From NCBI GenBank assembly GCA_902769525.1, contig CACXPG010000001.1:124001-188000 (forward strand): DNA of 64,000 bases, in the 5' to 3' direction. How positions within the stretch are numbered: position 1 is the stretch's first letter; every line of letters starts with the position of its first letter. The notes below the pieces were generated by a model. That model was not told the origin of the DNA. It saw only the letters and a program-made list of their open reading frames with translations, and ran no database searches. The translations under genes were made by a program, and so were the position numbers. This document shows, piece by piece, positions 17,022 through 27,559 of this stretch. This DNA is from an uncultured Bacteroidia bacterium. Lineage in GTDB: Bacteria > Bacteroidota > Bacteroidia > Bacteroidales > UBA932.

Positions 17022-17459
17022 ATGACAACCCTTGGAATCCTTATCATTGCTATTGCTTGTGTAATCATTTCCGTGACGATTGTCTGGCTGGCTATGCGCG
17101 CCAGGCAAAATGAAACCAACAAGAAGGCAGAAATCATGCTCAAAGCCATCGAGGCCGGTCTTCCTGTTGACGTGGACAAGTTCACCGCTCCCAAAGTATC
17201 AAAACCCCAGGAGAAACAAAGCCTAAAGCAGGATCTGCTGGGAAAGCTTTCCGGGGCTGGTATCTTCTTTTTCATGGGTCTATCTTTCCTGATTCTTTAT
17301 TTTGTGGACCTGCTTGGCCCGGGCCTTCCTCAAGGCCTGTGGTTTAGAGAAGGGCTGCCAATGGCTGGGGGAGTCTTGATGGCTATCGGTATCAGCCTGT
17401 TCATCACTTACTTTGTCGGCAGGAAACTGCTTAAAAAGGAGATGGAGAAGGAAGACTGA
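17022..17459 (+). CDS. Small membrane protein, DUF6249-like
   Basis: 145 residues with three hydrophobic segments (about 3-23, 77-93, 111-131) and a cytosolic stretch between the first two (KKAEIMLKAIEAGLPVDVDKF) that resembles the DUF6249 signature of Bacteroidetes. It ends in a basic tail. Function unknown. It starts 26 nt after the dipeptidase and ends 4 nt before a lipoprotein peptidase, so it is probably in the same transcript. Confidence 0.7.
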   Translation: MTTLGILIIAIACVIISVTIVWLAMRARQNETNKKAEIMLKAIEAGLPVDVDKFTAPKVSKPQEKQSLKQDLLGKLSGAGIFFFMGLSFLILYFVDLLGPGLPQGLWFREGLPMAGGVLMAIGISLFITYFVGRKLLKKEMEKED

Positions 17460-17463
17460 CTCT

Positions 17464-18654
17464 ATGAAAAAGGGAGTTCTTTTGATAGCAGTCTTAGCGC
17501 TGCTTGCAAGTTGCCGCACTTCTGATGTGTCTATATTCGAGCACGTCGAGAAACTTTGCAATAAAGACAATGGCAAACTGTGGGGAGTCAACCTCTATTC
17601 TCCGGTTCTTGGTGTTGATTCGCTGAGGAATATTGTCAGCAATGTCTCTGATGCGCCAAAAACATTCCCGGCGGATAAGCCTGTTGCAAATTCTACAACT
17701 GAACTGGACGGCAAGCGCTGGACAACGGTTTTGTGGCCCCTGTCCGGAGACCAGAAGCATCAGTCCATAATCCTCGTCCACGAGATGTTCCACTATCGCC
17801 AGCCGGAGCTTGGACTTTGGCAGGACAAAGATCCCAACAATTCTCATCTTTCCAATAGAGATGCCCGTACGCTTCTGAAACTGGAGTGGAACGCGCTGAA
17901 GGCTACAGCCTCTTGTGATGGCGAGCAAAAGAAAACCGCTCTTGAAGATGCCTTGAGTTTCCGCGCCTGGAGAAGACACTTGTATCCGGACTTTGCCCAA
18001 GAAGAGAACGCTCTGGAGGTTCTGGAAGGACTTGCCGAGTACACCGGAAGGCGCATTGCAATCCCTGACAACAAGGAATACCTGCAGTCTCTTTCTGACC
18101 TTGACTACCTGTATGAATCAGACAACCTGACACGCTCTTTCGCATACCTTTCCGGACCTCTTTACGGATTGATTCTGGACCAGTCCGGCCATTCTTGGCA
18201 TAAAGAGATGAACTCTGGCAGTGATCTTGGATCCTCAGCGATGGAGATTTACGGAATAACTCTTCCCGAAAACCTGAAAGGAGCCGTAGAAATAGCCAAA
18301 GCCAAGTATGACTTTGAATCCATTGATGCAGCGGAAGAAGCCTTTCAGCGCAAACTGGAAGAGAGGAATGAGACACTTCGCAAATTATTTGCTCCCGATA
18401 ACATCATAACACTGGAATGCCCTAATCTCTCTATTCAGTTTTCCCCTGACAGCATGATTAAAATGGATGACGGGAGTATGGTCATCTATGGCTGCACCGC
18501 TTTTTGCGACTGGGGCTCTGTAGAAGGTCATCCGCTGAAAGTGACAGCTGATTGGCACAGTATTGAACTGCCTCGCCTGGACACGCTTTCTTTCAACAAC
18601 GACACTATTACCACCTCCGGCTGGACTCTGATCAAAAAGAACAACAACCCTTAA
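17464..18654 (+). CDS. Putative zinc metallopeptidase lipoprotein (HExxH)
   Basis: 396 residues. Lipobox LLASC with Cys17. A single HEMFH motif (H106, E107, H110) in IILVHEMFHYRQPELG, and downstream E188 in LEGLAEYTGR as likely third ligand, fit a gluzincin-type metallopeptidase. The C-terminal about 90 residues form a separate beta-rich region. Start ATG 17464 begins the signal peptide; a longer in-frame start overlaps the DUF6249 gene. Last gene before the repeat island, with a strong terminator behind it. Substrate unknown. Confidence 0.75.
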   Translation: MKKGVLLIAVLALLASCRTSDVSIFEHVEKLCNKDNGKLWGVNLYSPVLGVDSLRNIVSNVSDAPKTFPADKPVANSTTELDGKRWTTVLWPLSGDQKHQSIILVHEMFHYRQPELGLWQDKDPNNSHLSNRDARTLLKLEWNALKATASCDGEQKKTALEDALSFRAWRRHLYPDFAQEENALEVLEGLAEYTGRRIAIPDNKEYLQSLSDLDYLYESDNLTRSFAYLSGPLYGLILDQSGHSWHKEMNSGSDLGSSAMEIYGITLPENLKGAVEIAKAKYDFESIDAAEEAFQRKLEERNETLRKLFAPDNIITLECPNLSIQFSPDSMIKMDDGSMVIYGCTAFCDWGSVEGHPLKVTADWHSIELPRLDTLSFNNDTITTSGWTLIKKNNNP

Positions 18655-18664
18655 CTATAAAGAA

Positions 18665-18700
18665 CAAGCACCTGCGATAGTTCGCAAGTGCTTGATTTTG
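18665..18700 (+). terminator. Hairpin terminator at the left border of the island
   Basis: CAAGCAC and TGCG pair with CGCA and GTGCTTG (11 bp, one mismatch) around a 6-nt loop, followed by ATTTT. It ends 2-3 nt before the first tRNA-derived core, so it would have stood behind the tRNA before insertion (inference). Confidence 0.7.
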
Positions 18701-18702
18701 AA

Positions 18703-18717
18703 TTGTGGGCCCAGAAG
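18703..18717. repeat. Core repeat copy 1 (candidate att site, left border)
   Basis: TTGTGGGCCCAGAAG, identical to the tRNA 3' segment at 24932-24946. Contains the palindrome TGGGCCCA. Preceded by chromosomal terminator sequence, followed by the shared left end. Confidence 0.75.
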
Positions 18718-18837
18718 AACCACCAAGGGACTTTTTACATATTTCTATCTATCAAGTTCTTACCTTCCTTATATGGGAGAGAAAAGACTCCCTGGCGACA
18801 TATAGGCGACAAACTTGAGCGAATATAGCCGTTAAAA
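18718..18837. repeat. Shared left end of unit A
   Basis: 120 bp, identical to 22481-22600 except for one C/T difference (CTCCCTGG versus CTCTCTGG). Includes the paired motif GGCGACATATAGGCGACA at 18794-18811. Similarity stops sharply after GTTAAAA. Confidence 0.85.
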
Positions 18838-18868
18838 ACATATCGCACAAGGGGCCCAAAGATTTATC

Positions 18869-19708
18869 CTATTTGACAGATCTTGAGCTATAATCTGGAT
18901 ATAATGTTGGGCTGACTGGAATATTATTTCTGTTCATATCAGGATTCCAGCCCCTTCCCTTTTCCTTAAGTCTCAACCATCGTTGTTCCTGCCTTACATC
19001 ATCGCTATAGTAATTGTAATGGCTGTCACTGTTCTTAACCTTAATCTGCTTGAATTTGTCTCCGATATTGTTCCCGAAGTTGTCATTAGATGCGAGCATC
19101 ATTAAAGACAAGACATCCTTGAATCTACAAGGCTTTGACTGCAAAATAGTACTCTGGAAATAGTAAAGATATGAATCGTCCGTTCTGTCGCGATTAATGA
19201 TATAGAGGCCGTGGTCATAGCGGAACCTGTCTTCTTTGGAAGTCTTGGTGGAATAAACATGTTTCTTTTCAACAGTTTGGTATGGGGATACTCTCTCCCC
19301 TTTGATAATCATTTGACCAGAATACTGGCCTTTGTATAAACTGTTGTTTTCTGAAAGAACCAGTCTATTGCTCTTATCCATATCCACCCAGGAATTAGTC
19401 CAGGTCGTATCCTTAAAGACACTTATTGCAATGCATTCAGCATCACTCTCCTTATCAACAACAACAGCTCCTTGATTTGCCAGGAATCCGGAAAGTATAG
19501 CATCTCTGAATGACATTTCTTCTTCAGAAAGATTAGAAGGTGAATACGCTACTATAAAAACCTTCTTCCCCGATACTGAAAACTCCTTGTCCGAGCGAAC
19601 AAGAACATCTGCTTTCTTCAGTTTCTTTGGAGTCTGGGCAATGCAGAGAAAAGGTATGGCCGTCATTATAAACAGCAATGATAAAAAGTATTTGTATGAT
19701 CGTTTCAT
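18869..19708 (-). CDS. Secreted protein of unknown function (island unit A)
   Basis: 279 residues. A signal peptide (about 1-25, ending LCIAQ) is followed by a soluble domain: VRSDKEFSVSGKKVFIVAYSPSNLSEEE, then GAVVVDKESDAECIAISVF, resembling proteins that compare or report envelope stress, but no family is recognised. The C-terminus is charged and Asn/Pro/Tyr rich. Transcribed leftward from a divergent promoter shared with the 19804 gene. Codon use is AT-rich compared with the genes before 18.6 kb, which fits acquisition. Confidence 0.7.
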   Translation of the reverse strand: MKRSYKYFLSLLFIMTAIPFLCIAQTPKKLKKADVLVRSDKEFSVSGKKVFIVAYSPSNLSEEEMSFRDAILSGFLANQGAVVVDKESDAECIAISVFKDTTWTNSWVDMDKSNRLVLSENNSLYKGQYSGQMIIKGERVSPYQTVEKKHVYSTKTSKEDRFRYDHGLYIINRDRTDDSYLYYFQSTILQSKPCRFKDVLSLMMLASNDNFGNNIGDKFKQIKVKNSDSHYNYYSDDVRQEQRWLRLKEKGRGWNPDMNRNNIPVSPTLYPDYSSRSVK

Positions 19709-19751
19709 AATTCTAATTATAATTTTAATGTTTAGATGACCCTTTCATTTG

Positions 19752-19777
19752 CAAAAATAAAAAAAAACATAAATTTG
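19752..19777. promoter_or_regulatory. Divergent -7 elements between two island genes
   Basis: Minus strand TATTTTTG (19752-19759) serves the leftward gene, and plus strand TAAATTTG (19770-19777) serves the gene starting at 19804. Both fit TAnnTTTG. Confidence 0.6.
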
Positions 19778-19803
19778 CCAACAAATTTGAGAAGTCATTA
19801 ATT

Positions 19804-20775
19804 ATGAAACGAATCTATATTATTCTGACTCTTGTTTGTGCTCTGTTTCTTTCAGGGCAAAACATATACGCCCAGCTTTCTGAAAGGGGGAAACTGCCTC
19901 CTGTCAAGGTGGAAAACATTGACGCAGAGAAAGTCGAAGGCACTTGGTATTTGAGCCATTTTAACTTTTACACCGAGAATCCGGAACAGGACAACAATTT
20001 CAGCTGCATCGTTTATAGAATAACCAAAGACTCCATTTCTACCTGCTATCATAGTTATAGAGGAAAAGATATAGATAAGGTTTTCTTTTCTTTTATTCCT
20101 GTCTTCAAGGGTAGTTATTCAAGGAAAGAGTTAAGAGCTGACGCACCTATAGCATACACTAATAATTTCTACGACTTCAAATCCAGTTATAGATACATTA
20201 GGCTCAACGATAGCTTACTCACAATAGCAGACCAATATGACATTGTAACCTGTAAAGATGGAGAATACGCTTTTAGGTATAAAAAACTGATTCCTGAGAA
20301 AAAGCGGTCTGATTTCCTTTTTGCAATAAAGAACTCCACCGTGGATGTGGAAGATAGGTTCAAGTGCAAAGGAGGAATTGATATGACTAACAGCGAGGTG
20401 AAATTAATGCCGTGTTTCCCTCAGGATTCTCTTAACAGAGACACGGTTTTCTTACAAGCCATTAGCAATGTTCTATCATTCCAAGAAAGAGCATTCTGCG
20501 TACGCTTTATGGAATGGTGCAAAGACAATGTTAAAATACCGGAAGGCTATTCCGGAAACATTGTACAAGGCTATTTCCACGTTGAGTTCTATATCAATAT
20601 GTACGGATACCTTAACACATTCAGTATAATCCGTGGATTGGATGAAGAACTAGATAGTTATCTGACACAAAAGATAAAAGACTTCCCAAGAATCCTTCCT
20701 GCCAAGGACAAAAATGGCAATAACATCCTTTATAAAGCTACCGGAAGGTTTTCAATGTACATCCCGATAGAGTAA
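19804..20775 (+). CDS. Secreted protein with C-terminal TonB_C-like domain (island unit A)
   Basis: 323 residues. Signal peptide of about 23 residues (IYAQ). The first two thirds match no family I know (VEGTWYLSHFNFY suggests a lipocalin-like strand). The last about 95 residues resemble a TonB C-terminal domain: MEWCKDNVKIPEGYSGNIVQGYFHVEFYINMYG in two blocks, then IRGLDEELDSYL, FPRILPAKDKNG and RFSMYIPI. Unlike a real TonB there is no membrane anchor or proline-rich linker, so it would be free in the periplasm. Convergent with the next gene (8-nt gap). Confidence 0.7.
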   Translation: MKRIYIILTLVCALFLSGQNIYAQLSERGKLPPVKVENIDAEKVEGTWYLSHFNFYTENPEQDNNFSCIVYRITKDSISTCYHSYRGKDIDKVFFSFIPVFKGSYSRKELRADAPIAYTNNFYDFKSSYRYIRLNDSLLTIADQYDIVTCKDGEYAFRYKKLIPEKKRSDFLFAIKNSTVDVEDRFKCKGGIDMTNSEVKLMPCFPQDSLNRDTVFLQAISNVLSFQERAFCVRFMEWCKDNVKIPEGYSGNIVQGYFHVEFYINMYGYLNTFSIIRGLDEELDSYLTQKIKDFPRILPAKDKNGNNILYKATGRFSMYIPIE

Positions 20776-20783
20776 GAATACAC

Positions 20784-21371
20784 TCATTTCCCTCCAATTG
20801 TAAAACCAACATTAAAAGCAACATTGCTGCTGGCCTTCTCTTCAATTTTATACTCTATCGAGAAACGTAAGTGGTTGAACAGTTTAATCCCGATTCTTGG
20901 CAGTATGCAAACTGAATACTTATTATTGCCCACAAAATCTCGAGAAATCAATTTGTCGTCTTTATAAAAGTTTTCTGCTGGAGATGCATTTGAGAACTTT
21001 GCCAAACCAGCTCCCAATCCGATAAAGAAAGAAGATTTATTCATTCTAAAATTATAGTCTCCGACTACTAAGAGATTTGATGAATTAGTTCCTACAGTAT
21101 TGTCGCCATAGGTTAGGTCTGATTTATATTCTCTATTCGTTCGTGAAAACGAATACTGGATACCCAAGTCTATCGGAGAACCATAAAAATTATATCTCAT
21201 CTCTAATCCAAACCCAGGACCAGGTTTAACAGAAGCATAACCACATTTGTCTGTTGCATAATTAAGACCAACAAACAAGCCTCCTTCTATTGAGCCTATA
21301 TTATTCTGAGCAGATAGAGAAATAGAAGATAGAAGAACACAAAGAGTGGTAAAAATATAAAACCTTTTCAT
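20784..21371 (-). CDS. Outer-membrane beta-barrel protein (island unit A)
   Basis: 195 residues. Signal peptide to SLSAQ, then an eight-strand-like pattern: GGLFVGLNYATD, GFGLEMRYNFYGSPIDLGIQYSF, FFIGLGAGLAKF, PRIGIKLFNHLRFSIEYKI and VAFNVGFTIGGK. Typical of small Bacteroidetes outer-membrane barrels. A near-match -7 element (TATCTTTA, minus strand, 21424-21431) lies about 50 nt before the start. Ligand or role unknown. Confidence 0.75.
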   Translation of the reverse strand: MKRFYIFTTLCVLLSSISLSAQNNIGSIEGGLFVGLNYATDKCGYASVKPGPGFGLEMRYNFYGSPIDLGIQYSFSRTNREYKSDLTYGDNTVGTNSSNLLVVGDYNFRMNKSSFFIGLGAGLAKFSNASPAENFYKDDKLISRDFVGNNKYSVCILPRIGIKLFNHLRFSIEYKIEEKASSNVAFNVGFTIGGK

Positions 21372-21440
21372 AATACTACCTATACCCTATAGTAATCCCA
21401 ATGATTGAACTCTCGGATTGATGTAAAGATACTCTGTTTT

Positions 21441-21465
21441 AAGGGAACGCCAAAATCTATCAACC
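21441..21465. repeat. Island repeat B, copy 1
   Basis: AAGGGAACGCCAAAA followed by TCTATCAACC; recurs at 23033 with one change, and its second half at 24188. Confidence 0.6.
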
Positions 21466-21499
21466 CTGGGAAGGGCCAGTTGATCGTTTTCTGTGCTCT

Positions 21500-21560
21500 A
21501 ATTTTGGCGACACATAGGCGACAGAATCATCAAAATCCCCCCCCATTTTCAGGAGTTTTG
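21500..21560. repeat. Island repeat A, copy 1
   Basis: Begins AATTTTGGCGACACATAGGC and ends CAGGAGTTTTG. Same orientation as copies at 22287, 23884 and 24741. Contains the paired motif at 21506-21523. Sits between genes of unit A, where nothing else is coding in 21372-21653. Confidence 0.75.
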
Positions 21561-21653
21561 AGTGACGAAACTATCAAGGGAGAAGAGACTGGAAGATATC
21601 CTAATTGATAGACCTTGTGCTATCATCTGGTTAGAATGTTCTCTGCGGGAATA

Positions 21654-22238
21654 TTAAAACCTGTACCCGCAGGTGAGCAACAGATACTCAAAACGGGTTG
21701 AGCCGTTGATATTGTATTCAGGATACTTTTTTCTCATATCATTCAGGCCAAGGCTGATATCTAGCCCCCAGATCCAGTGCTTTCCGCTTTCTAGGACAAT
21801 GCTTGGATGCAGGGCTATGTCACAGGATTTAAACTTGGTCTTATGGTTCAGCCCATAATTCGGATTGGCATCATAGTAATAGCTTCCACGATTGGTAAGG
21901 AACATCAGATCAGGCCCCAGGCCAACAACTATTCTTGGACCTCCAGATGGCTGAAAGTGATATCTTGCAGCACAAATCATATTTATACCGGAAGATATAT
22001 CAAGGTCCGCCTGAGTTCTCAATCCTATTTCCGGCATTACAGACCATTTGTCATTAACCCAGACATCCGCAGCATAAGAAACACCTAAAGAAATACCTCC
22101 GTCACCATCAAAATCTTCCGTTCCTGCAAACAGATTCACTCCCGCATTAACCTTGATGATATGATCCACCTTTGTTTGAGCTTGTATATTGATAGAAATA
22201 GCAGCTAACATTATTAACGACAGTAATAATCTCTTCAT
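21654..22238 (-). CDS. Outer-membrane beta-barrel protein (island unit A)
   Basis: 194 residues. Signal peptide MKRLLLSLIMLAAISINIQA, then strands such as VNAGVNLFAG, GISLGVSYAADVWV, PRIVVGLGPDLMFL and WIWGLDISLGLN, ending LLLTCGYRF with the C-terminal Phe of outer-membrane barrels. The start at 22238 is preferred over an in-frame ATG 30 nt upstream because the -7 element (22266-22273) places transcription start downstream of that ATG. Similar in type to the 20784 gene but not obviously a duplicate. Confidence 0.75.
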   Translation of the reverse strand: MKRLLLSLIMLAAISINIQAQTKVDHIIKVNAGVNLFAGTEDFDGDGGISLGVSYAADVWVNDKWSVMPEIGLRTQADLDISSGINMICAARYHFQPSGGPRIVVGLGPDLMFLTNRGSYYYDANPNYGLNHKTKFKSCDIALHPSIVLESGKHWIWGLDISLGLNDMRKKYPEYNINGSTRFEYLLLTCGYRF

Positions 22239-22252
22239 AGTTTCATTCTTAA

Positions 22253-22275
22253 CATTAGTTTCTATCAAAGGTAGT
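22253..22275 (-). promoter_or_regulatory. Duplicated promoter module, copy 1 (-7 TACCTTTG)
   Basis: The plus strand carries CATTAGTTTCTATCAAAGG plus TAGT, identical over 23 nt to 24698-24720. The minus strand reads TACCTTTG at 22266-22273. It drives the 21654-22238 gene. Confidence 0.65.
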
Positions 22276-22286
22276 CTTTTTGATAG

Positions 22287-22351
22287 AATTTTGGCGACAG
22301 AATAATCACAAATCCCCCATTTTTCAGGAGTTTTGCGGTGGATGGGAAGAG
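22287..22351. repeat. Island repeat A, copy 2 (half motif only)
   Basis: Like copy 1 but only one GGCGACA (22293-22299) remains; 11 nt including the second half are missing. Adjoins the shared right end of unit A. Confidence 0.7.
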
Positions 22352-22376
22352 AAGTTGAGTTGATAGAGAATTCTGC

Positions 22377-22465
22377 AAAATCCCTGTTCTATGCACCCAG
22401 AAAGGGGATTTTAGATAGGAAAAGGGATTGCCAGGTCAGGTGTTAATCTGCTTGACAATCCCCTG
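22377..22465. repeat. Shared right end of unit A (contains hairpins)
   Basis: 89 bp matching 24843-24931 with few substitutions. Two imperfect inverted repeats (AAAATCCC/GGGATTTT and GGGATTG/CAATCCC) would act as terminators for leftward transcription. The intergenic stretch 22239-22594 holds only the promoter module, repeat A, this end, the core and the next left end. Confidence 0.8.
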
Positions 22466-22480
22466 TTGTGGGCCCAGAAG
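22466..22480. repeat. Core repeat copy 2 (junction between units A and B)
   Basis: TTGTGGGCCCAGAAG, identical to the copies at 18703 and 24932. Right end of unit A on one side, left end of unit B on the other. Confidence 0.8.
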
Positions 22481-22600
22481 AACCACCAAGGGACTTTTTA
22501 CATATTTCTATCTATCAAGTTCTTACCTTCCTTATATGGGAGAGAAAAGACTCTCTGGCGACATATAGGCGACAAACTTGAGCGAATATAGCCGTTAAAA
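22481..22600. repeat. Shared left end of unit B
   Basis: 120 bp, one mismatch from 18718-18837. Paired motif GGCGACATATAGGCGACA at 22557-22574. The last six bases overlap the stop codon of the leftward gene. Confidence 0.85.
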
Positions 22601-22984
22601 CGTTGGGGATTTCTTCAGACGAATTATAACCTCATCTGCATCTAACATTTTAGCAGTTGCAACAGTATCTTTTCCAGTATAGCCTTCTGCTTCAATTCTA
22701 AAACAAGGCATGAGAGAGGAGGCGGGAAGATAGTTGCAAGTAAGGGTGGCAAAACCATTGTTGTCTGTTTCCACGCTGTCTTTCCATTTCGTGAAAGTAC
22801 GGTTTTCCTTCATCAGCACTTTAGCCTTTTCAAGAGCGGCCCCTTCTGTATTTAGAACTCTGAAATTAATGTCCCGAACTTCCCAATCCAATCCCTGAGC
22901 AGTGCCGTAACAGGCTTGAAATACAAACAAAGCCGTTGTCAGGGAACAGCCCTTTAAAAAGTTTCTTAATAACCTATATTTCAT
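22595..22984 (-). CDS. Small lipoprotein with carboxypeptidase-regulatory-like fold (island unit B)
   Basis: 129 residues. The signal ends in FQAC (Cys25) followed by YGTAQ. The body has NFRVLNTEGAALEKAKVLMKEN and TDNNGFATLTCNYLP, the pattern of a CarboxypepD_reg/CNA-type beta-sandwich. The C-YGT start recalls the putative lipoproteins encoded next to radical SAM genes in Bacteroidetes, but no such enzyme is here. Promoter TATCTTTG on the minus strand at 23008-23015. Confidence 0.65.
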   Translation of the reverse strand: MKYRLLRNFLKGCSLTTALFVFQACYGTAQGLDWEVRDINFRVLNTEGAALEKAKVLMKENRTFTKWKDSVETDNNGFATLTCNYLPASSLMPCFRIEAEGYTGKDTVATAKMLDADEVIIRLKKSPTF

Positions 22985-23007
22985 AGCTTGTTTCTGTTTT
23001 ATATACT

Positions 23008-23015
23008 CAAAGATA
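23008..23015 (-). promoter_or_regulatory. -7 promoter element (TATCTTTG)
   Basis: Perfect consensus on the minus strand, 24 nt before the start of the 22595-22984 gene. Confidence 0.6.
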
Positions 23016-23032
23016 ATTATTTTCTACTGGAC

Positions 23033-23113
23033 AAGGGAACGCCAAAACCTATCAACCTGTATTAAGCTCTTGAACACTTTTTCCGAACGCGCTTGGTGGG
23101 AGAATACGGAAAA
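23033..23113. repeat. Island repeat B, copy 2
   Basis: Its first 25 nt match 21441-21465 (one change). The continuation ATTAAGCTCTTGAACACTTT, CCGAACGCGCTTGG and GAATACGGAAAA matches 24188-24250, so this copy links both. Confidence 0.65.
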
Positions 23114-23141
23114 GATGGGGAATGGAAAGGATATTTGCTCC

Positions 23142-23172
23142 CTTTCCAATGATTATCCTATCTTTGTGCTAA
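23142..23172 (+). promoter_or_regulatory. Duplicated promoter module, copy 1 (-7 TATCTTTG)
   Basis: CTTTCC, GATTATCCTATCTTTG and TGCTAA recur at 23995-24025 with one change. The -7 element is 23159-23166, 47 nt before the ATG at 23214. Confidence 0.65.
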
Positions 23173-23213
23173 CTGGTTCTCCTATTCAATTTAGCACAGA
23201 TAATAAGGACTGT

Positions 23214-23840
23214 ATGAAAAGATTCTTGTTGATAATACTATTGTTGTCAGTTTATGGTTGCTCTGAAGAACCTGATGTGAATTTGCAGGAAATCAAAATA
23301 GCGGATTCATTGTACTGGTCATTTTTTTCAGATAAAAAGCCGGATAACTTATATATGGCTGACAGTATTTTGCAAACTATCTCTACAAATGATGATAGGT
23401 GCTTAATCCGTTTGGCAAAAATCAATTTTGTGTTAGGGAATAACAATAAAGCGGCTGATTGCTTGGCTAAAGTGAGTGAGAGCTATTTCAATGATGACTA
23501 TAGAAAGCTATCTTACATTACAGCATTACACGCTTTTTCCAAATACTCGGAAAAAGATTCCATAGAAGCAAAACGATTGTTAAACGAGGCTATCTCCATT
23601 ATTGACAGCCATCTTGTCAATAACTCCAATGACTCTCTTGCAGTTGGAATGAAATATATAATTAAAAGGCAAATTTTTGATATTGATATAGAACAGTTGA
23701 ATAATGAAATAGATCAACTGCCCTATACATATTTGATCTATGACATCAAGAATAGCTATCCGGCAAAACTGCATTACAGATTCTATAATTCTTCCCATCC
23801 AGATTTCCCTTGCTTTTTATTGGAGGAATTAGACAAATAA
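23214..23840 (+). CDS. Lipoprotein, helical TPR-like, unknown function (island unit B)
   Basis: 208 residues. Lipobox SVYGC with Cys16. The mature part is helical with spaced pairs that look like degenerate tetratricopeptide repeats (LIRLAKINFVLGNNNKAADC, KLSYITALHAFSKYSEKDS, EAKRLLNEAISIIDSHLVN). ATG 23214 starts the signal peptide and lies behind the -7 element; a longer in-frame reading from 23070 runs through repeat B and the promoter and is rejected. Strongly AT-rich. No family recognised. Confidence 0.65.
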   Translation: MKRFLLIILLLSVYGCSEEPDVNLQEIKIADSLYWSFFSDKKPDNLYMADSILQTISTNDDRCLIRLAKINFVLGNNNKAADCLAKVSESYFNDDYRKLSYITALHAFSKYSEKDSIEAKRLLNEAISIIDSHLVNNSNDSLAVGMKYIIKRQIFDIDIEQLNNEIDQLPYTYLIYDIKNSYPAKLHYRFYNSSHPDFPCFLLEELDK

Positions 23841-23883
23841 TCAAGAATGTCTCTTCCCCATTTTTGATAGATTAATGTGCTTC

Positions 23884-23970
23884 AATTTTGGCGACACATA
23901 GGCGACAGATTTGGAAAAAATCCCCCCATTTTTCAGGAGTTTTGGGGTGAATGGGAAGAGTGGGAGATGA
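23884..23970. repeat. Island repeat A, copy 3
   Basis: Nearly identical to copy 4 (24741-24829). Paired motif GGCGACACATAGGCGACA at 23890-23907. Confidence 0.8.
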
Positions 23971-23994
23971 TAGAGACTGTGCTATTTTACTCCA

Positions 23995-24025
23995 CTTTCC
24001 AGTGATTATCCTATCTTTGTGCTAA
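23995..24025 (+). promoter_or_regulatory. Duplicated promoter module, copy 2 (-7 TATCTTTG)
   Basis: Matches 23142-23172. The -7 element 24012-24019 lies only 5 nt before the ATG at 24025, so the predicted transcript starts at or next to the start codon. Confidence 0.6.
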
Positions 24026-24159
24026 TGGATGCTCTTGTCGTATTTATCTATTTCTTTGGAGGCCTCTATGTTACCCTCTGCATAACTGCTCTCTCCATTA
24101 CTCTCTACCGCGATTGGAAAGAAAAAAGGGAGAACAAGAATAATGATGGGGAAAATTAA
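24025..24159 (+). CDS. 44-residue single-pass membrane peptide (island unit B)
   Basis: Begins MDALVVFIYFFGG. One hydrophobic helix spans about residues 4-28, followed by a charged tail (RDWKEKRENKNNDGEN), predicted outside-to-cytosol by the positive-inside rule. The duplicated promoter module ends at its start codon, suggesting a leaderless mRNA. The short length and uncertain start keep confidence moderate. Similar tiny membrane proteins can be toxins or regulators, but nothing here proves either. Confidence 0.5.
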   Translation: MDALVVFIYFFGGLYVTLCITALSITLYRDWKEKRENKNNDGEN

Positions 24160-24187
24160 GCTGATCCAACCACTCCCACCCCCATTT

Positions 24188-24250
24188 CTATCAACCTATA
24201 TTAAGCTCTTGAACACTTTCCGAACGCGCTTGGAATGCGAATACGGAAAA
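24188..24250. repeat. Island repeat B, copy 3 (3' part)
   Basis: CTATCAACC followed by the same ATTAAGCTCTTGAACACTTT and CCGAACGCGCTTGG blocks as at 23033-23113. Confidence 0.65.
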
Positions 24251-24279
24251 TGATAGATTTTGTAGTATTATACTCTCAA

Positions 24280-24687
24280 TTAAGGTTTTCTGGGGATGCT
24301 ATTAAGTTCGGTTTGAGAAGGAAGCGCTAAATAACCTGAGGCTCCTGTCCAAAAAGCGCGTCTATTTGGATGTTTAAGACTAACAAGAACTTCTATGGTA
24401 TCTCCAATATTAATTGAGTTATATTGTTTTTCGGAGATTGTATTACTTTTTGAGAAGACCTGTCCATCTAATTCATATTTGAAACGAATCTCCCAACCAG
24501 GTTTGTAACGACGAGCACCAATATTCTTGTAATACATATCAACTATCTCTGCCTTCACTAAAACAGAATCATCACGCATTTCCTTATTTAAACGAATTTG
24601 ATGAATAGTGAAGAATGGTACAAGAATAACTATTAGAATAATTGCTATACAATCCTTTCTTCTGAAAAATGATTTTATCCACCCCAT
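24280..24687 (-). CDS. DUF3592-like single-pass membrane protein (island unit B)
   Basis: 135 residues. One membrane helix (about 13-30: IAIILIVILVPFFTI), then a beta-rich domain with VLVKAEIVDMYYKN, GWEIRFKYELDGQVFSKSN, NIGDTIEVLVSLKHPNRR. This order (V-x-A-x-V, W-x-x-x-x-Y-x-x-D-G, G-D-x-I-x-V) is that of DUF3592 proteins. Function unknown. Driven by the second copy of the duplicated leftward promoter module. Confidence 0.65.
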   Translation of the reverse strand: MGWIKSFFRRKDCIAIILIVILVPFFTIHQIRLNKEMRDDSVLVKAEIVDMYYKNIGARRYKPGWEIRFKYELDGQVFSKSNTISEKQYNSINIGDTIEVLVSLKHPNRRAFWTGASGYLALPSQTELNSIPRKP

Positions 24688-24697
24688 TTTAACAGCA

Positions 24698-24720
24698 CAT
24701 TAGTTTCTATCAAAGGTAGT
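24698..24720 (-). promoter_or_regulatory. Duplicated promoter module, copy 2 (-7 TACCTTTG)
   Basis: Identical over 23 nt to 22253-22275. Minus-strand TACCTTTG at 24711-24718, 23 nt before the start of the DUF3592-like gene. Confidence 0.65.
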
Positions 24721-24740
24721 GTTTTGTTTTAAAAGGGCAG

Positions 24741-24829
24741 AATTTTGGCGACACATAGGCGACAGATTTGGAAACAATCCCACATTTTTCAGGAGTTTTG
24801 GGGTGAATGGGAAGAGTGGGAGATGATGA
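24741..24829. repeat. Island repeat A, copy 4
   Basis: Paired motif GGCGACACATAGGCGACA at 24747-24764. Adjoins the shared right end of unit B, as copy 2 adjoins that of unit A. Confidence 0.8.
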
Positions 24830-24842
24830 CCTGATTTGATAG

Positions 24843-24931
24843 AAAATCCCTGTTCTATACACCCAGAAAGGGGATTTTAGATAGGAAAAGGGATTGCCAG
24901 ATCAGGTTCTATCCTGCTTGACAATCCCTTG
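24843..24931. repeat. Shared right end of unit B; terminator region of tRNA(CAU)
   Basis: 89 bp matching 22377-22465. On the minus strand it begins 3 nt after the tRNA 3' end and contains AAGGGATTG...CAATCCCTTTTCC, a plausible terminator for the tRNA. No other feature was seen in 24688-24931 besides the promoter module and repeat A. Confidence 0.75.
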
Positions 24932-24946
24932 TTGTGGGCCCAGAAG
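24932..24946. repeat. Core repeat copy 3, inside the tRNA 3' end
   Basis: TTGTGGGCCCAGAAG; covers the discriminator, the 3' acceptor strand and four bases of the T stem of the tRNA(CAU) gene on the minus strand. Confidence 0.8.
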
Positions 24947-25008
24947 GGCATGATCCTCCGACCCCCTGATTATGAGTCAGGTGCTCTAACCAACTGAGCT
25001 ATGAGCCC
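24935..25008 (-). tRNA. tRNA with CAT anticodon (elongator Met or Ile2)
   Basis: 74 nt. Acceptor GGGCTCA pairs fully with TGGGCCC (one G-U). Anticodon stem CCTGA/TCAGG with loop CTCATAA. T stem GGAGG/CCTTC (one G-U). Discriminator A, no encoded CCA. A G-C first pair excludes initiator tRNA; Met versus lysidine-modified Ile cannot be decided here. The T loop reads ATCATGC instead of TTCRANY: positions 54 and 58 are changed together. Its 3' end is the attachment core of the neighbouring island. Confidence 0.88.
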
Positions 25009-25444: not shown

Positions 25445-27559
25445 TTAGTCTTCATCATCCAGCGCCCTCACTCCGGCCTTGTCGATGATCTCCTTGGCCA
25501 GGTTAGAAGGAAGCTCTGCGTAATGAGAGAATTCCATTGTACTTGTGGCACGGCCTGAAGACAAGGTTCTAAGGACGGTCACGTAGCCGAACTGCTCGCT
25601 GAGCGGAACCTTGGCCTTGATGATCCTGGCACCGCCACGGGAGTCCATGTTGGTGATCTGTCCCCTTCTCTTGTTCAGGTCTCCGATAACGTCACCCATA
25701 TAGTCCTCAGGGGTTACAACCTCGAGTGCCATGATAGGCTCCATAATCACCGGAGCGGCCTTTCTTGCGGCCTTGCGGAATGCCTGGCGTGCGCAGATCT
25801 CGAATGACAGCTGGTCGGAATCCACAGGGTGGAATGAACCATCCTTGAGGACAACCTTCATTGAAGTTACCTCATATCCGGCGAGCGGTCCGTTCTGCAT
25901 GGCAGCCTTGAAGCCCTTTTCAACTGCAGGAATGAACTCTCTAGGAATGTTACCACCCTTGACTTCATCCACGAACTGCAGTCCGGTAACTCCCTCGTCT
26001 GCCGGGCCAAGCTCCACAATTATATCCGCAAACTTTCCGCGGCCTCCCGTCTGCTTCTTGAAGACCTCCCTGTGCTGGACAGTCTGCATAAGAGCCTCCT
26101 TGTAGTTCACCTGAGGTGCACCCTGGTTGATCTCCACGCCAAACTCTCTCTTGAGGCGGTCCACAAGAATCTCCAGATGGAGCTCGCCCATTCCGCTGAT
26201 AACGGTCTGGCCGGTCTCCGTGTCTGACTTGACGGTGAAGGTAGGATCTTCCTCGGCCAGTTTGCCGAGAGCGATGCCGAGCTTGTCAAGGTCTCCCTGA
26301 GTCTTAGGCTCCACTGCCAGTCCGATAACCGGATCAGGGAATACCATAGACTCCAGTACTATAGGATGGCTTTCCTCGCAGACGGTGTCACCGGTGCGAA
26401 GATCCTTGAATCCTACAACTGCGCAGATGTCTCCTGCCTCTACAAAATCGATTGGATTCTGCTTGTTGGAGTGCATCTGATAGAGTCTTGCAACTCTCTC
26501 CTTCTTGCCGCTTCTTGTGTTGAGTACATAAGAACCGGAATCCAGACGGCCTGAATATGCTCTCATATAGGCCAGTCTTCCAACGAAAGGATCTGTAGCA
26601 ATCTTGAACACGAGTCCGCAGAACGGATCTGAAGCGGAAGGTTTTCTCTCCACCTCCTCGTTGTTCCTCGGATTGGTTCCGGCAACGTTGCCTTTGTCCA
26701 GAGGACTAGGCAGGTACCTTACCACTGCATCCAAGAGGAATTGCACGCCCTTGTTCTTGAATGAAGATCCGCAGCAGATAGGAACTACCTCCATAGCGAT
26801 GGTTCCCTTGCGGATTGCTGCAACGATTTCTTCTTTGGAAATGGTTTCCGGATCGTCGAAATATTTCTGCATAAGAGCCTCGTCGAACTCGGCTGCGGTC
26901 TCGAGGAGGTTGTTCCTCCACTCGGCTGCCTCGTCCATAAGCTCTGCAGGAATATCCTTTATCTCGAAATTAACAAGCTCCTTGTTGTCCGTATCGTAGA
27001 AGTAAGCCTTCATGTCGATAAGGTCAATGATGCCCTGGAACTTCTCCTCCGCTCCGATAGGAAGGCAGATAGGAACCGGATGGGCACCAAGCTTGTTCTT
27101 GATGTCATCTACCACGCCCATGAAGTCTGCACCTACACGGTCCATCTTGTTTACATAGGCGATCTTTGGAACATTGTACTTGTCTGCCTGTCTCCAGACG
27201 GTCTCGCTCTGAGGCTGGACACGTCCGACAGCGCAGAAAGTTGCAACCGTACCGTCCAGGACACGAAGTGAACGCTCTACCTCAACGGTAAAGTCCACGT
27301 GGCCCGGAGTGTCGATAAGGTTGATCTGGTATTTTTCACCATTGTAGTGCCAGAACGCGGTGGTGGCGGCAGAAGTGATGGTGATACCTCTCTCCTGCTC
27401 CTGCACCATGAAATCCATTGTTGCGGCACCATCGTGAACCTCACCAATCTTGTGAGTCTTACCAGTGTAGTAAAGGATTCGTTCGGATGTGGTTGTTTTA
27501 CCGGCATCTATGTGGGCCATGATGCCGATGTTTCTCGTGTATTTAAGGTCTCTTGCCAT
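25445..27559 (-). CDS. fusA: Elongation factor G
   Basis: 704 residues. The GTPase domain begins [22 protein letters not shown] (P-loop AHIDAGKTT), with DTPGHVDF (G3) and NKMD (G4). Domains II-V follow, including [19 protein letters not shown] and [15 protein letters not shown] near the end. Full length for a translational EF-G that drives ribosome translocation. Lies between rpsG and rpsJ on the same strand, 25 nt after rpsG. A single canonical copy; no sign of an EF-G2-type paralogue. Confidence 0.98.

Follow-up and report, generated by a model that had tools for sequence, protein, structure and literature searches.

The 64,000-nt window analysed here (GenBank assembly GCA_902769525.1, contig CACXPG010000001.1, positions 124,001 to 188,000) derives from an uncultured Bacteroidales bacterium of the UBA932 lineage, whose habitat is probably the rumen. 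Behind a tRNA-Met(CAU) gene, the window carries an island that is likely to be a stack of two minimal cis-mobilizable elements, each targeted to the tRNA and composed of an attachment (att) site (a core with arms on both sides) and cargo, with no integrase of its own. The core, TTGTGGGCCCAGAAG, which is near-palindromic by eye, was found in three exact 15-bp copies starting at 18703, 22466 and 24932, the last of which overlaps the 3' end of the tRNA gene (24934-25008, minus strand). Shuffled sequence is expected to hold 0.14 copies with up to two mismatches, and none of 100 shuffles reached three. From core to core, the units measured 3763 bp (unit 1) and 2466 bp (unit 2). Their left (A) ends were alike over 135 nt including the core (99% identity) and their right (B) ends over 104 nt (93%). 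The original prediction, made from the sequence alone, of two related tRNA-targeted elements of about 3.8 and 2.5 kb lying head to tail between three exact core copies was borne out by these data, as was the common left end with its single mismatch; the right ends, which it had described as the same, proved to be alike but not exact.

The island has a GC content of 38%, compared with ~51% in both flanks. As predicted, it encodes no integrase: none of the seven island open reading frames (ORFs) scanned gave a match, and the six Phage_integrase matches in this genome (G000, 92% complete) are all on contigs other than that of the island. No match to relaxase or conjugation families was found among the seven ORFs, and the tRNA was the only known RNA family in the island. 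The layout of the island, in window coordinates, is as follows.

18660..18699, minus strand (the tRNA strand): terminator-like hairpin in the left flank (fold z -4.9 over 18655-18717; also seen in the joined-flank alignment)
18703..18717, plus strand: core 1, left boundary of unit 1, a copy of the tRNA 3' end
18718..18793, plus strand: A end of unit 1, part of the 135-nt, 99% repeat
18794..18811, plus strand: arm site of unit 1, 91 bp past the core start
18812..21505, no strand: cassette with ORFs 18869-19708 (minus), 19804-20775 (plus) and 20784-21371 (minus, outer-membrane beta-barrel)
21506..21523, plus strand: internal arm site, exact
21524..22292, no strand: cassette with ORF 21654-22268 (minus, outer-membrane beta-barrel matches below the cut-off)
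22293..22299, plus strand: degenerate right arm of unit 1, a single heptamer 166 bp before core 2
22300..22465, plus strand: B end of unit 1 with a hairpin, 86% identical to its counterpart in unit 2 (fold z -2.2, reached by 8 of 200 shuffles)
22466..22480, plus strand: core 2, boundary between the units, exact copy
22481..22556, plus strand: A end of unit 2, part of the 135-nt repeat
22557..22574, plus strand: arm site of unit 2, 91 bp past the core start
22575..23889, no strand: cassette with ORFs 22595-22984 (minus) and 23115-23840 (plus, lipoprotein-like by eye)
23890..23907, plus strand: internal arm site, exact
23908..24746, no strand: cassette with ORF 24280-24687 (minus, no family above the cut-off)
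24747..24764, plus strand: right arm site of unit 2, 167 bp before the core
24765..24931, plus strand: B end of unit 2 with a terminator-like hairpin (fold z -2.2, reached by 6 of 200 shuffles)
24932..24946, plus strand: core 3, within the tRNA 3' end, exact copy
24934..25008, minus strand: tRNA-Met(CAU), the anchor

The arm sites are internal repeats that the original prediction had overlooked. Each is the 18-bp sequence GGCGACAnATAGGCGACA, a direct repeat of the heptamer GGCGACA at an 11-bp pitch. In the G000 assembly the exact site occurs only five times (18794, 21506, 22557, 23890 and 24747), always within the island and in one orientation: each left core is followed by one at 91 bp, another stops 167 bp short of the tRNA core, and the remaining two separate cargo genes. 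The joint between cassettes is this direct repeat, in which no inverted core was seen by eye. The arrays of all genomes together contained 69 sites, 15 of which sit 91-92 bp past a core start; of the 17 cores that are not in a tRNA, only those of G009 at 26303 and G015 at 17299 have no arm site there. Of 21 right-end sites, 17 end 166-169 bp and four end 267-278 bp before a core. In some units the ends have diverged to 72-76% identity with the spacing kept; a fixed spacing despite diverged ends fits the need of a two-armed attachment site. The heptamer number itself varies from one to three, since the right arm of unit 1 is a single heptamer and one arm site in G024 (L110:7630-7658) is a triple 11-bp repeat. 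Arm sites of CTnDOT and of lambda would be analogues of the 18-bp site.

Arrays of this kind recur in relatives. The A end of unit 1 was matched at 98.9% identity in G022, G023, G024 and G030 and at 74-95% in G009, G012, G014 and G015. Left-end matches, some of them weak, occurred in 13 of 39 same-genus genomes. The exact 18-bp site was present in 11 of these 39 and in 13 of the 398 genomes searched in the family, where genomes without a fetched array stretch were searched for the exact site only; counting G018, which has variant sites, at least 12 of the 39 carry sites. Ten of these 12 have tRNA-Met and an adjacent site on one contig; of the other two, G028 has a tRNA contig with an integrase and no site on the stretch examined, and the tRNA of G009 is outside the part fetched. 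Two genomes of another genus (G303 and G337) also have a site beside tRNA-Met. Complete core-to-core units (n = 12) ranged from 882 to 7636 bp. The original prediction had called for relatives with other unit numbers, and these were found, with up to four units in one piece (G015). Assembled array pieces contained from zero to five cores, and the number differed among single-contig arrays, so that copies of the tRNA 3' end vary in number between genomes, as in additive islands with recurring tRNA ends. Only array remnants were present in G016; in G029 and G032 the tRNA has its 75-nt form, and the stretches examined contain no site. The contigs of G022, G023 and G024 end 20-144 bp past the matched left end, as expected of a repeat in assemblies.

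The cargo appears to be shared across species. Five window cargo genes showed 99.1-100% DNA identity in ten gene-genome pairings (G009, G012, G014, G024 and G028). ORFs 19804-20775 and 20784-21371 were 99.1-99.7% identical in four and two other species, respectively; ORFs 22595-22984 and 23115-23840 were both 99.5% identical in G009, where their order is reversed with an arm site between them; and ORF 24280-24687 was 100% identical in G014 and 81.9% in G024. The identity of fusA to that of G000 was 87.3% in G012, 89.0% in G014, 94.4% in G024 and 91.9% in G028 (G009 was left out), that of the gene on the left of the island was 82.7-90.9% across the five genomes, and rpsJ was 91-95% identical where measured. 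The contrast between cargo and core genes is clearest for fusA and for G012, in which three cargo genes were 99.3-99.7% identical compared with 87.3% for fusA and 82.7% for the left gene. It thus looks as though cassettes have passed from one species to another in recent times. The arrays of G000 and G012 lie in 280- and 527-kb contigs, which makes contamination improbable there; in small contigs it could have produced the cargo identity.

In the arrays, 103 ORFs of at least 80 aa, called greedily and some of them probably spurious, fell into 58 clusters, 27 of which had a single member. Beyond the window's own, 20 of 30 cluster representatives had no Pfam family at E 0.001. The named array cargo comprised ParE, ParD, PIN_3, MazE, AbiEii, DUF6922, a CdiI_3 immunity protein, a SprT-like protein, an ATPase and a sub-threshold AAA match, and that of the window comprised one outer-membrane beta-barrel above the cut-off (20784-21371) and a second below it (21654-22268). 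A further repeat shared by window positions 23049-23113 and 24188-24250 lies next to minus-strand cargo genes, near what we take to be Bacteroides-type promoter motifs (TATCTTTG); it is apparently another module boundary, away from the arm sites.

Some shared cassettes occur in different orders among genomes. When the flanks of the 69 sites were sorted into half types, which are families of similar 60-bp ends and not identical cassettes, 24 left and 18 right types occurred in 45 combinations, with seven complete 2x2 sets. Ends of blocks with at least 97% identity lay within 20 bp of a site or core in 26 of 75 cases, where 11.4% would be expected by position, with ends common to several pairs counted more than once. 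Types of cargo end thus reassort at the arm sites, in an integron-like pattern.

A candidate integrase was found in G028 (RUG234). Matches to PF00589 occurred in all 12 genomes searched; among the places listed, only that of G028 was at an array tRNA. The gene there begins 113 bp beyond the tRNA and encodes a tyrosine recombinase of 457 aa, in which Arm-DNA-bind_5, Phage_int_SAM_5 and Phage_integrase domains were recognised. In G022 (RGIG10318, from yak rumen), an N-terminal fragment 97% identical to this integrase is followed immediately on its right by an arm site, then by a 168-bp end, a core and the A end of another unit. The relative with an integrase between the same ends that the original prediction had proposed to look for was therefore found in part, as an integrase beside the same tRNA (G028) or at the same kind of right end (G022), and not as a complete element. 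Relatives of the integrase at E 1e-40 were present in 10 of 398 family genomes, including G028 and G022, and G303 has a truncated integrase start (63.8% over 58 residues) beside a site and tRNA-Met. It should also be noted that in G028 (L143:7900-9632) the 17-bp CAAGTGCTTAGAACAAG between the tRNA and the integrase is present a second time, in the opposite orientation, where the contig ends, together with part of the usual right end; this inverted piece, and the missing arm site between gene and tRNA, could reflect either a rearrangement or a misassembly.

The 18-bp site is most likely an integrase arm-binding site. We prefer this reading because repeats with the same 11-bp pitch lie upstream of related integrases and because the same site precedes a phage integrase. 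In five of nine family sequences without the GGCGACA motif (five of the eight in other genera), namely those of G274, G301, G291, G098 and G303, direct repeats of their own (9-13 bp, exact 11-bp pitch) lie within 400 bp upstream of the integrase; those of G274, G301 and G291 sit between the tRNA and the integrase gene. An 11-bp-pitch run was held by 143 of 3300 random windows. Period 11 accounted for eight of 20 repeat runs with periods of 8-30, three of the eight being the GGCGACA motif itself, in G022 and G303. As for arrays built on the repeat of G274, one of 151 genomes in its genus contained that repeat, as a single exact copy.

Among viral contigs, the exact 18-bp site was found in only two, L079 and L078; no tRNA was found in L078. 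L079, an IMG/VR phage contig (region 1-1589) that carries a terminase, has an exact site at 45-62 and a second with one mismatch at 261-278, 216 bp apart. They end 252 and 36 bp before a 424-aa integrase (starting at 315) with Arm-DNA-bind_5, SAM_5 and Phage_integrase domains, which shares 21% identity with that of G028 over 291 aligned columns. We considered a chance match and dropped it, given two sites upstream of an arm-domain integrase; the arrangement makes the arm-site reading slightly likelier and the integron-like one, discussed below, less likely. One arm code may be read by unrelated elements. The integrase of G028 was not found in viral contigs.

On this basis we propose the following course of events. 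An autonomous element with an integrase of the G028 type would have targeted tRNA-Met, and daughter elements would have shed the integrase and retained both ends. An integrase supplied in trans by a resident or incoming autonomous relative would recombine an excised unit with the 3' end of the tRNA. New units would then enter at the tRNA, restore it together with its terminator, and push older ones outward. Internal arm sites would be the joints of fused units, left after the stretch from B end through core to A end between two arm sites had dropped out through recombination of these direct repeats or slippage between them. At one site in L034 (minus strand, 14756), a full B end is followed by a mutated core, TTGTGCGCCAAAATG, which is, by its sequence, a putative dead attachment site within a fused unit.

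The spacer of the arm sites bears on how such joints might form. It is ATATA in seven of 15 left ends and ACATA in 15 of 21 right ends, and among the 18 internal joints that lead to a cargo start it is ATATA in four and ACATA in nine. Crossover on either side of the spacer would suit slippage or homology better than one fixed cut, a weak argument, since three of the 15 left ends also have ACATA.

Several observations weigh against the proposed stack of mobilizable elements. Excised forms were not seen, a complete unit with an integrase between both ends was not found, and no cassette pair that is fused in one place and unfused in another was noticed on inspecting the site list, which was not tested systematically. 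No left core was recognised for the G022 fragment, and its 168-bp right end has the spacing of the cassettes' B end but no sequence match to it. The intact G028 integrase lies at a contig end with no arm site on the stretch examined, and G000 has no close relative of it, the best being 23% identical in a frame with one stop; that distant relative (L196, contig C9, 2085-3290) has no arm repeats or tRNA in the stretch examined. Four of the nine family sequences (G028, G322, G259 and G113) have no exact 11-bp repeat, G259 having pitches of 10 and 13 bp. In the cargo, ORF 18869-19708 is only 85.6-97.4% identical in four species, and rpsG is 97.9-98.7% identical in G014, G024 and G028, so that not every gene contrasts with the cargo. 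Finally, neither a site nor a core is near 49 of the 75 block ends, and further breakpoints therefore exist.

These last block ends also suit a different view, that the arrays are dead relics: an old integrase element would have seeded the locus, which now decays, while homologous recombination between repeats shuffles and spreads the cargo. Of the 13 genomes in which an array or its remnants occur, only G028 has an intact integrase; that of G022 is truncated and that of G016 is a 40-residue remnant, and degeneration is visible in a core of G009 and in the arm at 22293. We nevertheless consider this view unlikely. Five cargo genes are 99-100% identical across species, some at different array positions, and at 15 of 17 left ends and 21 right ends the cores and arms are preserved, with their spacing unchanged. 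The original prediction had left it open whether the units are moved in trans or are relics; because of the cargo identity, relics alone have become the less likely of the two.

Less probable still is that the 18-bp sites are the crossover sites of a site-specific recombinase that moves single cassettes in the manner of an integron, with the tRNA as an anchor. The seven complete 2x2 sets, the several identity blocks that stop a few bp from a site, and a cargo of toxin-antitoxin genes and genes without annotation, which resembles that of superintegrons, would all agree with it. However, the site is a direct repeat without the inverted core, the same site stands upstream of a phage arm-domain integrase, and related integrases are preceded by different repeats of equal pitch. 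The mixed spacers of the joints also suggest no fixed cut, although ACATA occurs in left ends as well, and the G028 integrase fails the integron-integrase model TIGR02249 (22.6 bits against a cut-off of 265). That the units are assembly-cut parts of a phage, satellite or conjugative element is very improbable: repeats do break assemblies, as at the three contig ends above, and a phage contig has the same arm site, but the island is embedded in a 279,826-bp contig, it had no match in phage and plasmid collections, the core-plus-A-end pattern had none in viral contigs, the window cargo matched PHROG at E 0.001 or better only once (0.00088, a family of unknown function), and the phage integrase is only 21% identical to that of G028.

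An empty site joining 18702 to 24932 had also been predicted for the stacked elements, and it was recovered in part. The joined left flank and tRNA align across the junction to G029, which has no site (80% over 185 bp), but only ~44 bp of the left flank, a terminator-like hairpin, is common to both, and the left flank does not match G032, which also has no sites. A similar hairpin directly follows the tRNA in G029, and the joined flanks align as well to G003 and G030, in both of which such a hairpin closes the last unit. Hairpins form in the ends that adjoin the tRNA (z -2.2 in each B end of the window, -3.9 in G030 and -5.2 in G022), so each unit may supply a new terminator, and the hairpin in the B end of unit 1 could be a substitute for that of the tRNA. 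The left-neighbour gene (17413-18654), which was not found in the fragmented, 78% complete assembly of G029, is on the array contig piece in eight genomes, elsewhere in G015, G016 and G018, and present twice in G028. It was rejected as an anchor because it is far off on the same contig in G015 and on another contig in G016 and G018, and the gene is itself, on these positions, probably accessory.

The original prediction knew of no described cassette type with this layout, a claim that did not stand, since close precedents exist (PMC5704250, PMC3146451, PMC10872708). In the passages cited, cis-mobilizable elements (CIMEs) are bounded by att sites, lack integration and transfer genes and accrete one behind another at a target gene's 3' end (PMC5704250). 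The window units resemble them in their att-flanked, integrase-less tandem stacking: cores with arms at fixed distances are predicted to act as attL and attR, and no integration or transfer gene was found among the seven ORFs. Mobilisation by a neighbour with common att sites is suggested by the sequences of G022 and G028. Unlike integrative and conjugative or integrative and mobilizable elements (ICEs and IMEs), the units have no integrase of their own. They differ from the CIMEs described there in being small (0.9-7.6 kb) and joined at arm sites, and the window part studied showed no ICE or IME nearby. The Dehalococcoides islands are likewise multiple and tandem behind one RNA gene, each with a repeat of the ssrA 3' end, and 15 without an integration module were suggested to be CIMEs (PMC3146451, as far as its cited part goes); theirs is a serine recombinase, DsiB, with ssrA, whereas here we found a tyrosine recombinase, tRNA-Met, arm geometry and reassortment. 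Additive flexible genomic islands of Methylopumilus have recurring tRNA-Lys repeats, and, compared with the portion of that source cited, arm sites and a cognate integrase are described only here (PMC10872708). Tycheposons, as outlined in the same source, are similar in being tRNA-anchored, with a tyrosine recombinase and cargo, but they span 4-200 kbp and carry the recombinase, whereas the units here are mostly smaller and have none (PMC10872708).

Chromosomal integrons and clusters of attC sites lacking integron integrases (CALINs) are similar in having cassette arrays with variable cargo and toxin-antitoxin genes, CALINs being without a nearby integrase; the arrays reported here have no integron integrase, are anchored at a tRNA and carry cargo in both orientations. 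CIME accretion, tandem ssrA islands and additive tRNA-Lys islands are thus known in general, as the cited parts of the three sources indicate (PMC5704250, PMC3146451, PMC10872708). As far as our literature search reached, the new features are minimal att-only units in which the arm geometry is conserved, arm sites at which cargo ends reassort, a connection of such units with an integrase, and an apparently recent spread among species of this genus; among titles and abstracts of the open-access literature, no paper describing these arrays was found.

A broader interpretation, which we offer only tentatively and think rather doubtful, is an integron-independent form of cassette capture, in which a tRNA would act as the landing platform for att-only cassettes, passing relatives, and perhaps phages with integrases that recognise the same arm site, would provide the integrase that most carriers do not have, and arm sites would serve as joints for fusion and reshuffling. 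Surface-protein, toxin-antitoxin and immunity genes would then form a pool common to these Bacteroidales. If the mechanism proposed for the stack is right, integron-like cassette arrays can arise from ordinary tRNA integrases whose elements keep only att sites and cargo. With its core, arms, integrase and many natural arrays, the system would offer a testbed for whether an integrase acting in trans maintains a cross-species gene pool and whether arm sites take part in joining elements, and it is a possible explanation of the variable, integrase-less islands behind tRNA genes.

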